A DNA stretch of 38,539 nucleotides, from NCBI GenBank assembly GCA_003650425.1, contig QMPP01000005.1:1-38539 (forward strand). Direction: 5' to 3'. Below the pieces are notes generated by a model. That model saw only the letters and a list, made by a program, of their open reading frames with translations, did not search any database and was not told the DNA's origin. The first letter of the stretch is position 1. Each line of letters begins with the position of its first letter. Source of the DNA: Bacteroidota bacterium (lineage in GTDB: Bacteria > Bacteroidota > Bacteroidia > Bacteroidales > F082). Positions 8,628-36,402 of the stretch are shown here, piece by piece. The position numbers and the translations under genes were made by a program.

Positions 8628-8715
8628 GTAAATCAGAAAACAAATATCTTTTTTATAACTCCTCCTTTGTTTTCCCTCCAAAGAGGGAAATAATGGAATT
8701 TGTTTTCTGATTTAC
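8628..8715. repeat. 18-bp inverted repeat enclosing an 8-bp hairpin, in the 344-base prfB/arsC-like spacer
   Basis: The gene-free stretch 8456-8799 holds a promoter box (8480-8487) and this element. Perfect 18-base arms read GTAAATCAGAAAACAAAT (8628-8645) and its reverse complement (8698-8715). Between them lies a second hairpin, TTTCCCTC (8671-8678), loop CAAA, GAGGGAAA (8683-8690). ATTCCAT (8621-8627) and ATGGAAT (8693-8699) form a further inverted pair overlapping the right arm, so alternative foldings are possible. No T-run follows on the minus strand, so a simple terminator is less likely than a REP/MITE-like unit. I see nothing else in the spacer. Confidence 0.75.
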
Positions 8716-8799: not shown

Positions 8800-9898
8800 T
8801 CATCCCTGATCTGTTCCCCCAAACTCCATCAGATAGGCTTTTATAAAGTCGTTCAGCTCTCCATCCAATACTGCCTGCGCATTGGAGGTTTCATAATTGG
8901 TTCGTAAATCTTTTACCAGTTTATACGGATGTAACACATAAGATCGGATTTGTGATCCCCACTCAATTTTTTTCTTATTTCCCTCAATATTTGCCTGTGC
9001 TTCCTGCTGCTTTCGCATCTCTATTTCATAGAGTTGTGATTTTAGCATTTTCAAAGCTTTTTCCCGATTTTGTCCTTGCGACCGGGTTTCCTGGCATTCG
9101 ACCACGATGCCTGTTGGCTCGTGGTGCAATCTTACTGCCGTTTCAACTTTATTCACGTTTTGCCCGCCGGGTCCACTCGAGCGAAAGGTATCCCAGGTAA
9201 TATCAGATGGGTTAATGTTTATCTGTATGGAGTCGTCAACAACCGGGTAGATGTAAACCGAAGCAAAAGAGGTGTGGCGCCGGTTAGCCGAATCGAACGG
9301 CGAAAGGCGAACTAAACGATGAACTCCGTTTTCACCTTTTAGATAGCCAAAAGCAAAATCACCATCAAACTCCAGCGAAACCGATTTTATACCGGCTACA
9401 TCACCCTCTTGATAGTCGAGCTCCTTAACTTTAAAACCATTTTTCTCGCCCCAGCGAATGTACATACGCATAAGCATCTCAGCCCAGTCTTGGCTTTCGG
9501 TGCCTCCCGCCCCGGGATTAATCTTCAGAATGGCATTAAACTTATCCTCTTTACCTCCCAGCATTTGCAGAAACTCCAGCTCTTCGACCAAAGTAACAGC
9601 TTCATGGTACTGTTGATCAAGATCGGATTGTTCGGCTTCACCGGCCTCAAGAAATTCCTGGAGTACAGAGAGGTCGTTAAGCAGGCTTTCTACCTGTTGA
9701 TATTTTGTAACCCAGCGTTTTTTTTCCTGAATATCCTTCAGTATTAATTCTGCTTTTTTAGGGTCATCCCAAAACCCGGGAGCTTGCGTTTTCTCCTCTT
9801 CTTCCTCTACTTCGTACTTCTTTTTATCGATGTCAAAGATACCTCCTCAAGGCACCCAGCCTCTTATACAAATCTTTTAACCCCTCGGGAGTAAACAT
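8800..9898 (-). CDS. prfB: Peptide chain release factor 2 with programmed +1 frameshift
   Basis: RF2 ends translation at UGA and UAA. The gene starts at ATG 9898 and reads 21 codons to an in-frame TGA at 9835-9833. The slippery context is AGG AGG TAT CTT TGA C, with a Shine-Dalgarno-like AGGAGG just before it, as in the classical bacterial prfB site. Slipping from CTT to TTT skips one base (9835), and reading resumes at GAC (9834-9832), so the product is join(9898-9836, 9834-8800), 365 residues, the same as E. coli RF2. The anticodon-like SPF motif ([11 protein letters not shown]) and the catalytic GGQ loop ([13 protein letters not shown]) are present. Taking only the open frame from an internal start would lose the N-terminal domain. 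It follows the WG-repeat gene by 13 bases. Confidence 0.97.
9831..9850 (-). promoter_or_regulatory. Programmed +1 ribosomal frameshift site of prfB (RF2 autoregulation)
   Basis: On the minus strand the site reads AGGAGGTATCTTTGAC (9847-9832). AGGAGG can pair with the 16S anti-Shine-Dalgarno, CTT is the slip codon and TGA is the RF2-specific stop. Low RF2 slows termination at TGA and favours the shift, so RF2 controls its own level. Beyond the stop the +1 frame is open and matches RF2. Confidence 0.95.
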
Positions 9899-34121: not shown

Positions 34122-35228
34122 TTACTTTAACAATTTCTTAACTTCTTTTACAATGTTTTCGGTAGCATCATCCGTTTTGAATGGTTTCAGGTTGTTGATG
34201 ATGTCCCTTCTTTTTTTGTCTGATTCAACAAGCTCATTAATCGTTTCCACAATTCTTGTTTTTGCCTCCGCTTCACGAAGTAAAATAGCTGCCCCTTTTT
34301 CTGCAAGCGAAAGAGCATTTTTAGTTTGATGATCTTCGGCTGCCGATGGTAACGGAATAAAAATGGCCGGTTTGCCAACGGCTACTATTTCAGCAATAGC
34401 AATGGCACCGGCTCTGGATACTAACATATCTGCGGCAGCGTATGCTTTATCCATTTCGTATATAAAATCGACTACCTTAATTCGCTTACCAAACGGGCTG
34501 CTTTTGGCTGCATTTTTTGCTTTTTCCAACGAAAAAGTGCCGGTTTGCCATATAATTTGAATGCCGAGCACCGCTATTTCGTTAAGGTTTTCCAGGATAG
34601 CCTGATTGATACCTCTGGCACCCTGGCTTCCACCAATAATCAGCAACACCGGCCGGTTAACCTCCAGATTAAAATGATTTAACCCCTCTTCACGGGTAGT
34701 CTTAAGGTTTAATATCTCCTTGCGGATAGGTGCTCCGGTTATCACCAGCTTGCCGGAGGGAAAATAGTTTTCCATCCCTTCGTAAGCCACGCAAATGGTA
34801 TTTACCCGTTTACCTAAAATTTTGTTGGTGATGCCAGGATAGGAGTTCTGCTCTAAAATAAGGGCAGGCACCTTTCGGCGGGAAGCCATATAAAGCAACG
34901 GGCCGCTGGCGTACCCGCCGGTTCCGATGGCAATATCGGGTTTAAAGTTTTTAATAATCGCAGCGGCTTTCCACAGACTGCTTATCAGCTTGAACGGGAA
35001 AGAGAGATTGTCAATGGTGAGCTTGCGCTGAAACCCACTTATCCAAAGTCCGTGAATGGGATAACCGACCCTGGGAACTTTCTCCATCTCCATTCTGCCT
35101 TTAGCTCCCACAAAAACGATTTCTGCATCGGGATAATGCTCCTTTAGCTTGTTGGCAATAGCGATGGCAGGGAAAATGTGCCCGCCGGTACCCCCACCGC
35201 TCATCAATATTTTTAGTGGCTTACTCAT
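34122..35228 (-). CDS. murG: UDP-N-acetylglucosamine--MurNAc-pentapeptide transferase
   Basis: A 368-residue GT-B glycosyltransferase that converts lipid I to lipid II on the inner face of the membrane. The N-terminal glycine loop MSGGGTGGHIFPAIAIA, the GTGGYASGP loop and EQNSYPGITNKIL fit MurG, as do GGSQGAR, the acceptor and UDP-GlcNAc-binding residues in SRAGAIAIAEI, and PAAEDHQTKNA. The start overlaps the ftsW stop by eight bases, which suggests coupling. Confidence 0.97.
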   Translation of the reverse strand: MSKPLKILMSGGGTGGHIFPAIAIANKLKEHYPDAEIVFVGAKGRMEMEKVPRVGYPIHGLWISGFQRKLTIDNLSFPFKLISSLWKAAAIIKNFKPDIAIGTGGYASGPLLYMASRRKVPALILEQNSYPGITNKILGKRVNTICVAYEGMENYFPSGKLVITGAPIRKEILNLKTTREEGLNHFNLEVNRPVLLIIGGSQGARGINQAILENLNEIAVLGIQIIWQTGTFSLEKAKNAAKSSPFGKRIKVVDFIYEMDKAYAAADMLVSRAGAIAIAEIVAVGKPAIFIPLPSAAEDHQTKNALSLAEKGAAILLREAEAKTRIVETINELVESDKKRRDIINNLKPFKTDDATENIVKEVKKLLK

Positions 35229-36402
35229 CGCGCTCCTCCCCGGTTATTGCTTCTGCAGCAAGTTTTTCTTTATTCAGTTCAATTTCACGACTCACACTTA
35301 AAATAATGCCAATGGCCAAACTACTGAACCATAAAGAGGTTCCACCCATGCTTATCAGCGGCAGCGGTTGTCCGGTAACAGGAAAGAGGTTGACAGCTAC
35401 CCCCATGTTTATCATGGCTTGAAATACCAGGCTAAAACTCATCCCGATAACCATAAAACTCCCGAACAGCGTGGGTGATTTTAACGAAATACGAATGGCT
35501 CTGAAAAAGAGGACAAGATAGAGTAACAGCACAAAAACACCACCTATTAAGCCATATTCTTCGATAATAATGGCATAAATAAAATCGGAATAGGGATGCG
35601 GAAGAATGTTTCTCTGGGTACTGTTACCGGGGCCCTTGCCGTATATACCTCCGGTTGCAATGGCTATTTTTGCCTGTTCCACCTGAAAGGGGATTTCGCT
35701 TTTGTCTTTATTCAGGAAGTGTTCGATGCGATGTTTCCAGGTAGCCGTTCGCCCCTGCATACCATCAGGCATGTTAAACATGATAAGAATAATGATGGCT
35801 AAAATAGTGGCTCCCGCAGCAATCAGGCCTGCCAGGTAAAGTAGTTTAACCCTTCCAACAAAAAGCATAACCAGGCTAATGGTAAACACGATGGCAGCCG
35901 TGGAGAGATTGGCAGGCAATATGGCTATCACTACTGCCAATATTGGAACCATCAAGGGAACAAAGGCCGATTTAAACCCTTTGATATTATCCTGCCGGCG
36001 CGTCAGCTCACGTGCCAGATAAACGATAAGGGTAATTTTTGCCAGGTCGGAAGTTTGAAAAGTAAGCCCCACCAACGGGATTCTTAATACACGCGTAGCT
36101 CCGTTAATGTTTTCGCCAAAAAACAAGGTTATCACCAATAACGGAACGGCAATGTAGAGGGCAATTTGAAAAATACGTGAGTAGTAGGTGTATTTTAGTT
36201 TGTAGGCCAAATACATAAGCAGGAGGCCAAAAAACATGATGATGGCATGCTTTATCATGTAATGCATGGTATCGCCACCCTGGTATTTGTAAGCCAGTGT
36301 GCCTGTTGAACTGTAAACAGCCAGCAACGAAATAATGCTCAACATCACTACGATGGACCAAATTACCTTGTCTCCTTTTATGTATTTAAAACCGATTTTC
36401 AT
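35221..36402 (-). CDS. ftsW: SEDS-family peptidoglycan glycosyltransferase FtsW
   Basis: A 393-residue polytopic membrane protein with about ten hydrophobic segments, beginning KYIKGDKVIWSIVVMLSIISLLAVYSS. SEDS markers are the large extracytoplasmic region with GINGATRVLRIPLVGLTFQTSDLAKI, the ATGGIYGKGPGNS segment, DFIYAIIIEEYGLIGG and the TGQPLPLISMGGTS loop. FtsW polymerises lipid II into septal glycan with a class B PBP. Position in the division cluster supports FtsW rather than RodA. It lies four bases after murD. Confidence 0.95.
   Translation of the reverse strand: MKIGFKYIKGDKVIWSIVVMLSIISLLAVYSSTGTLAYKYQGGDTMHYMIKHAIIMFFGLLLMYLAYKLKYTYYSRIFQIALYIAVPLLVITLFFGENINGATRVLRIPLVGLTFQTSDLAKITLIVYLARELTRRQDNIKGFKSAFVPLMVPILAVVIAILPANLSTAAIVFTISLVMLFVGRVKLLYLAGLIAAGATILAIIILIMFNMPDGMQGRTATWKHRIEHFLNKDKSEIPFQVEQAKIAIATGGIYGKGPGNSTQRNILPHPYSDFIYAIIIEEYGLIGGVFVLLLYLVLFFRAIRISLKSPTLFGSFMVIGMSFSLVFQAMINMGVAVNLFPVTGQPLPLISMGGTSLWFSSLAIGIILSVSREIELNKEKLAAEAITGEERDE

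Follow-up and report, generated by a model that had tools for sequence, protein, structure and literature searches.

A predicted hairpin adjoining the Shine-Dalgarno sequence is linked to the prfB frameshift site in Bacteroidia

Many frameshifting prfB genes of the Bacteroidia, which encode release factor 2 (RF2), can form a short hairpin next to the Shine-Dalgarno (SD) sequence of the frameshift site. Across the class this hairpin is in excess over synonymous shuffles, holds a set position, depends on the presence of the frameshift and has two arms that match each other. A conserved, frameshift-linked hairpin adjoining the SD is what is new here; no description of a natural prfB hairpin was found in the literature searched, and Naeem 2024, Jha 2021 or Baranov 2002 may report one. 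We consider it likely that these genes use the prfB +1 frameshift with an added upstream hairpin that refolds and helps the shift. Held more tentatively, at close to an even chance, is the fuller reading that RF2 autoregulation has an undescribed hairpin, selected in frameshift genes only and in lineage-specific registers, which drives the +1 shift together with the SD despite a hidden anti-SD (ASD). The original prediction left the question of how ASD-hiding ribosomes achieve an SD-stimulated shift, for which the hairpin is a concrete candidate.

The prfB frameshift site

The stretch of DNA analyzed here (38,539 nt, called the window below) carries prfB on the minus strand at 9898-8800, identified by its translation and by a match to TIGR00020 over the cut-off (507 bits over a cut-off of 370 when the genome was searched; 504 bits for the protein). 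The gene starts with an ATG at 9898-9896, preceded by AT-rich sequence without an obvious SD, and its zero-frame leader (9898-9833) consists of 21 codons followed by UGA. The body (9834-8800) is open in the +1 frame from a GAC codon at 9834-9832 and encodes 344 aa, giving an RF2 of 365 aa together with the 21 zero-frame residues. The +1-frame product covers positions 16-353 of TIGR00020, and RF1 models scored far under their cut-offs. UGA is also the terminal stop of the gene (8802-8800), as in 3 of the 30 counted ORFs of the window, prfB among them. A plain ORF call returns 8800-9591, a product of 263 aa with a TTG start, which bears out the warning that the gene is at risk of being annotated as a 263-residue fragment.

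The frameshift site comprises, all on the minus strand, an internal SD AGGAGG at 9847-9842 (codons 18-19), the E-site codon UAU at 9841-9839, the slippery P-site codon CUU at 9838-9836, which re-pairs on UUU, and the in-frame UGA at 9835-9833 (codon 22) with a C next to it at 9832. In the order AGGAGG-UAU-CUU-UGA-C, an SD-like stimulator stands 3 nt 5′ of the slippery codon and a C follows the stop, and the gene has the expected short zero-frame ORF, a stop overlapping the slippery CUUU and RF2 in the +1 frame. The minus-strand reading, the +1 frame and the TIGR00020 match agree with the predicted gene coordinates and intact AGGAGG context; the predicted codon range of 19-24 is only roughly right, given the codon positions above. 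By its sequence, from which we infer actual shifting and autoregulation, the site is the well-known +1 programmed frameshift through which prfB is autoregulated, in which plentiful RF2 would lead to termination at the UGA and a 21-residue peptide.

An exact 16-mer of the site is present as a single copy in the 3.1 Mb assembly. Allowing up to three mismatches gave 19 matches, not above a reversed control (20), and a motif search with up to three mismatches in 395 genomes gave mostly chance hits among the matches listed and was excluded from the counts. AGGAGG by itself is not rare, with 14 copies in the window when both strands are counted. By RF2, a ‘Bacteroidales bacterium’ MAG with 91% identity is the closest named relative within the top 80 of 592 candidates, and the assembly was accordingly taken as Bacteroidota. 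Just downstream of prfB, at 8628-8715, the window holds an imperfect inverted repeat with 27-nt arms that are 85% complementary and 34 nt between them, which is possibly a terminator or a small mobile repeat.

SD strength and ribosome type of the host

Pairing of the prfB SD with the 16S tail is predicted at −12.9 kcal/mol, and the strongest 0.1% of random 17-mers of the window lie at about −12.7 kcal/mol. Ordinary starts were taken from non-overlapping ORFs (100 aa or longer) that begin with ATG, leaving aside the ORF inside prfB. Of 29 such starts, 2 reach −7 kcal/mol compared with 5% of random 17-mers at −7.1 kcal/mol, indicating that SDs at ordinary starts are about as frequent as by chance and upholding the view that they are scarce in the window. 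The two starts with SD-like sequence are those of ORFs 34122-35228 and 35221-36402; these neighbors (34122-36402), which overlap, are murG and an ftsW-like gene that scores under the NCBIfam cut-off.

The genome of the window encodes a bS21 of 64 aa with a Tyr at residue 54, and excerpts of McNutt 2023 (PMC9976891) describe Tyr54 of bS21 as stacking on the 16S tail. The genome thus carries a feature of an ASD-hiding ribosome. No 16S gene was found in the window's assembly; a search of 24 relatives gave 11 matches with nine readable ends, and CCTCC is present in all nine, three of them from the same order. As far as checked, the ASD-occluding ribosome setting proposed for this lineage was right. 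Two DNA-pattern ASD matches from 60 genomes of the order were considered as 16S and dropped; Rfam found no RNA family in either. On contig C81 of the window's own genome (locus L124), rpsR is followed by a gene that looks like rplI from its position and reading. Unlike rpsR itself, which reaches −2.5 kcal/mol, this gene is preceded by a strong SD, UAAGGAGGAACUGAAAG-AUG, at −11.1 kcal/mol.

The paradox of a strong prfB SD on such ribosomes, as raised in the original prediction, is already published and not new. McNutt 2021 (PMC8710568) prints an F. johnsoniae prfB site, AGGAGGUAUCUUUGAC, identical to that of the window, states the puzzle, and in a survey of the class found a frameshift in 523 of 726 Bacteroidia. 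The F. johnsoniae ribosomes appear to be of the same occluded-ASD type as those of the window's host. The F. johnsoniae PCR primer prZM53 given in that paper covers the hairpin region, and neither ‘hairpin’ nor ‘stem-loop’ occurs in the text examined. A Flavobacterium-like locus of our class sample (L254), which contains the prZM53 sequence, can form AGCGC/GCGUU. Passages of Prince 2025 (PMC12421855) cite Naeem 2024 for a low frameshifting efficiency in F. johnsoniae and give UAA as the frameshift stop in 1.4% of 8,164 genomes.

Conservation of the frameshift site in the class

The class sample was an even draw of 149 genomes, 148 with a match; four were dropped (one without a match, three with a weak best match), and 145 prfB loci, the window's own included, were analyzed, one of which is under the TIGR00020 cut-off. 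We took the class to be Bacteroidia, as the named relatives are Bacteroidales and the Flavobacterium-like L254 is a member. Some loci apparently belong both to this sample and to the set of 80 named relatives, as seen from equal leaders (e.g., L092 and L141). Frameshift genes were identified by requiring CTTT or TTTT.

The frameshift site is present in 122 of the 145 class genes and absent in 23; among relatives ranked by RF2, the top 80 of 592 candidates all carry it. In all 122 sites the slippery codon is CTT and the base after the stop is C; 118 sites have UGA as the stop and four have UAA (L129, L130, L131 and L194), and the latter are all without a strong SD. AGGAGG is conserved as the original prediction had expected, with 73 of the 122 sites carrying it and 106 carrying AGGAGG, AGGGGG (24) or GGGAGG (9); the other 16 have different hexamers. 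An SD of at least −7 kcal/mol strength was found in 108 of the 122 frameshift genes (15-nt window) compared with 6 of the 23 non-frameshift genes (30-nt window). Moreover, all 180 Arg codons at the two SD codons are AGG, compared with 174 of 1974 at other positions of these genes, so that selection on the SD acts at the nucleotide level.

The argument that the SD is retained and is therefore used holds in part: nucleotide-level selection keeps the SD, and strong use was overstated, since retention does not show strong use. Fourteen of the 122 sites are without an SD of −7 kcal/mol, among them that of genome G445, whose 16S tail still reads CCTCC, which suggests that the SD may be dispensable at the prfB site. 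Two non-frameshift genes, L247 (genome G409) and L209, carry an SD-like relic, which in L247 is AGGGGG-UUC-CUU minus the stop.

A predicted hairpin directly 5′ of the SD

The hairpin was first noticed as inverted repeats before the SD in aligned leaders. In the window, it is predicted from a 5′ arm GAGGC at 9863-9859 and a 3′ arm GCCUU at 9853-9849 on the minus strand (fold with a stem score of 4.5), 35-50 nt past the first base of the start codon; the 3′ arm lies 1 nt before the SD and ends at −11 from CUU. Against synonymous shuffles this stem has a P of 0.08 and its energy a P of 0.0455, so that the window by itself would not have revealed the hairpin and the case rests on the class.

For the class, the region from −39 to −10 before CUU was scored for the best uninterrupted stem with a 3′ arm ending at −11 or −12 and a score of at least 4. 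As null, every leader codon was swapped for a synonymous one with GC3-matched usage in 300 shuffles. By this measure 88 of the 122 frameshift genes are hairpin-capable, compared with 24.1 ± 4.2 in the shuffles (maximum 38 in 300). After dereplication at 80, 70 and 65% RF2 identity the counts are 63/82, 43/50 and 23/30 versus 16.9, 10.4 ± 2.7 and 6.7, and in the nearest named relatives (best 80 of 592 candidates) 66/80 versus 14.9 ± 3.2. No excess was found at the same position in non-frameshift genes (3/23 versus 3.8 expected), and control windows in the gene body gave 22/122 versus 15.3 ± 3.4, a mild excess, and 20/122 versus 19.3 ± 3.7. When 16 end positions were scanned (n = 50), the signal lay at −11 (42 versus 8.5) and −12 (33 versus 5.2), with a smaller rise at −13 (9 versus 3.4).

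Folding energies show the same dependence on the frameshift: the leader energy is −5.9 kcal/mol versus −3.8 kcal/mol in shuffles for frameshift genes and −3.3 versus −3.2 kcal/mol for non-frameshift genes. Leaders with a fold P below 0.05 make up 21% of the 122, compared with 5.5% of 488 gene-body windows and 9% of the 23 non-frameshift leaders; gene by gene, the folding signal is modest. Structure downstream of the site was considered and set aside (−3.5 versus −3.2 kcal/mol in shuffles). When 67 nt of free mRNA are folded, the minimum-energy structure contains the stem in 51 of the 88 genes; the SD itself is mostly paired there, with at least five of its six bases free in only 10 of the 88.

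Exchange of the 3′ arm among genes with the same dipeptide lowered the number of stems from 88 to 62.4 ± 4.0, with none of 600 exchanges reaching 88, and in the set dereplicated at 70% from 43/50 to 25.3 ± 2.9 (maximum 34). Thus, the arms match each other and are not each conserved for a reason of their own. The 88 stems represent 48 different sequences, e.g., AGGGAC/GUCCCU, AGAGAC/GUCUCU, AGCGC/GCGCU and GAGGC/GCCUU, and have 4 bp (8 genes), 5 bp (52), 6 bp (27) or 9 bp (1). Their 3′ arm ends at −11 in 84 and at −12 in four genes, and the 5′ arm starts at −26 in 51, at −30 in 11, at −29 in nine, at −28 in six, at −25 in six and elsewhere in five. An RF2 tree calls for at least 23 changes of register and at least 20 gains or losses of the hairpin.

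In the commonest register (−26/−11), which comprises 37 of 65 dereplicated rows (rows chosen by register, plus seven without a stem), 93.5% of the cells pair, compared with 20-49% when the arms are slid against each other. The covariation score of this register is 0.258 versus 0.217 in shuffles, with 1 of 500 reaching 0.258, and no two-sided change relative to the commonest pair was found in any pair of its 37 rows. The score being only slightly above that of shuffles, much of the register is a conserved CGC/GCG match. Two-sided changes are seen outside the commonest register, as in AGGGAC/GUCCCU, AGAGAC/GUCUCU and AGGGAU/AUCCCU. A second alignment, A2 (14 rows), stands outside all counts.

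The hairpin is found at 83 of the 108 sites with a strong SD and at 5 of the 14 without one (Fisher P 0.003, uncorrected for kinship); kinship-independent pairs for this association are too few to decide (median P 0.25). As the hairpin is commoner at strong-SD sites, a general rule by which it substitutes for the SD is not favored. Avoidance of competitor SDs was likewise dropped as the cause of the 5′ codon choice, which showed no deviation from shuffles in this respect.

A model for the upstream hairpin

In most Bacteroidia sampled, the cassette would read hairpin, SD, E codon, CUU, UGA and C, the addition to the textbook cassette being the short hairpin (4-6 bp in 87 of the 88 genes) that ends 1-2 nt before the SD. 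We propose that this hairpin folds again while the mRNA is emerging from the ribosome and thereby helps the +1 shift. It might do so by pulling the mRNA forward by one base, by stacking on and stabilizing the short SD-ASD helix, which these ribosomes would otherwise disfavor, or by both. Hairpin and SD are mostly separated by a single base, and the stacking route fits the company that the hairpin keeps with the SD. That the hairpin forms on the ribosome, that it stimulates the +1 shift and by which route are inferred from the sequence comparisons. If the hairpin does act in this way, the RF2 cassette of the textbooks, which usually begins with the SD, would be incomplete for at least one bacterial class, and reporters with the short motif could under-report natural efficiency in Bacteroidia.

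The E. coli prfB cassette (L289) shares the SD, the 3-nt spacing and CUU UGA C; it differs in having AGGGGG instead of the window's AGGAGG and a free ASD. A 6-bp stem that includes one G-U is possible at the corresponding position but, taken singly, is not above chance (P 0.22). In E. coli reporters a minimal window from the SD onward suffices for frameshifting. As described in excerpts of Huang, Cho and Chang 2018 (PMC6321510), an artificial hairpin upstream of CUUUGA stimulated the +1 shift in E. coli cell-free 70S reactions to ∼60% of the SD effect, and did so only with RF2 absent. That hairpin is artificial, has 12 bp, abuts the E site and was compared with an SD, whereas the class hairpin is natural, short and placed behind the SD; in the window, the 3′ arm ends 11 nt before CUU with the SD between, not against the E site. 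A conserved hairpin directly 5′ of the frameshift signal is present class-wide, with the above P of 0.08 for the window alone.

Upstream structures are also treated in Atkins 2016 (PMC5009743, including section 36). There, the 5′ stem-loop of T4 gene 60 is modelled as an mRNA ‘motor’: the hairpin forms at the mRNA exit and is proposed to move the mRNA relative to the ribosome, in a long bypass of a coding gap as opposed to the +1 shift of prfB. The review also describes an upstream stem-loop in barley yellow dwarf virus, raises the possibility that a viral stem-loop in such a position serves as insulation, and notes that the sequence directly 5′ of the SD is without competitor SDs at RF2 sites. 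PRFect 2024 makes the general remark that minor hairpins 5′ of frameshift sites may have been overlooked.

Alternative explanations

The frameshift could be an ordinary one and the hairpin a functionless by-product of conserved residues (Arg at −24 and Ala-Leu at −15 to −10) combined with codon bias. The residues are indeed conserved, with R at −24 and L at −12 in 122/122 genes and A at −15 in 103/122, and such an origin would also suit the scant two-sided change in the commonest register, the mild excess in one gene-body control and the P of only 0.08 for the window's own stem. However, the shuffles keep these residues and GC3-matched usage and still give 24.1 against 88, the exchange of arms between genes with the same dipeptide breaks many stems, and non-frameshift genes have no excess at the same place (3/23 versus 3.8). 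Codon choice points the same way: the Ala codon at −15 is GCG in 68 of 103 genes, compared with 455 of 3014 in the gene body. We therefore regard a mere by-product as improbable. Even less probable is an action of the 5′ region without any pushing, in which it keeps the ASD free of competitor SDs and the hairpin masks stretches rich in purines or acts as an insulator. Purines do predominate in a number of 5′ arms (AGGGAC, GAGGC), and the lack of competitor SDs and the insulation role in section 36 of PMC5009743 agree with this idea, but predicted ASD pairing of −39 to −10, −30 to −16 and −18 to −10 shows no deviation from synonymous shuffles (z −1.3, −1.4 and −0.9).

An effect of the hairpin on initiation, mRNA stability or transcription instead of frameshifting seems highly improbable. 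In the window the hairpin lies at a distance from the start where structure can matter; yet most non-frameshift genes have their start at the same distance and show no hairpin excess, and the position of the hairpin is locked to the SD at −11/−12. A further possibility, which we think unlikely and which concerns the SD, is that the prfB SD is barely used in Bacteroidia, the shift occurring mainly without SD-ASD pairing and the SD serving only under stress or on ribosomes lacking bS21. Naeem 2024 (RNA 30:136), a work devoted to this puzzle, reportedly found that F. johnsoniae efficiency is low and raised by a bS21 mutation and that the shift normally takes place without SD-ASD pairing, which speaks for this possibility. 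So do the low efficiency cited in the excerpts of PMC12421855 and the 14 of 122 sites without an SD of −7 kcal/mol, including that of G445 with its CCTCC tail. Against it, the 180 AGG codons out of 180 at the SD Arg positions suggest that the SD has fitness value in nature. A barely used SD can go together with a working hairpin, and the +1 frameshift aided by a refolding upstream hairpin remains our preferred reading.

The hairpin outside the class

An outgroup of 21 records, made up of E. coli plus 20 drawn from collections of plasmids or phages, contained 17 frameshift genes, seven of which have the stem compared with 3.0 ± 1.4 in shuffles (maximum of 300 shuffles 7); the seven include three Enterobacteriaceae, which represent a single lineage. 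If the stem may end anywhere from −13 to −10, the excess shrinks to 8/17 versus 5.5 ± 1.7. All four frameshifting Alphaproteobacteria (Tistrella, Sinorhizobium, Shinella and Methylobacterium, a set that includes two records added to the outgroup and in which Sinorhizobium and Shinella do not differ in the leader stretch) have stems of 7-8 bp ending at −11, with a P of 0.025-0.071 when taken singly. Among these stems, GCAGGC/GCCUGC, GCAGAC/GUCUGC and GCAGUC/GACUGC present one pair as G-C, A-U and U-A. The notion that AGGAGG is an answer of the Bacteroidia to ASD hiding was set aside; the hexamer is found in Alphaproteobacteria too. The hairpin thus also accompanies ribosomes that do not hide their ASD, which makes a role in compensation only less likely. 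It is also present in one Bacteroides and one Parabacteroides record.

The stem score was not reached in any of seven Bacillota or Fusobacteriota frameshift records, nor in Aeromonas, Acinetobacter and a Pseudomonas phage. In other Bacteroidota classes, represented by 30 genes that are the best-scoring ones and not an even draw, the hairpin is at chance level (6 of 28 frameshift genes versus 5.5). Together, the scores under the threshold in Bacillota and Fusobacteriota and the chance level in other classes indicate that the hairpin is not required in general. A prfB-like gene is carried by the Prevotella phage Lak-A2 (L314), in which the scan found no frameshift site. UAA is the frameshift stop in 7 of the 28 frameshift genes from other Bacteroidota classes (L006, L007, L014, L019, L021, L022 and L031), and in eight loci of these classes (L014, L016, L017, L020, L024, L025, L030 and L031) the SD core is located one base further upstream (CGAGGU-UAU-CUU).
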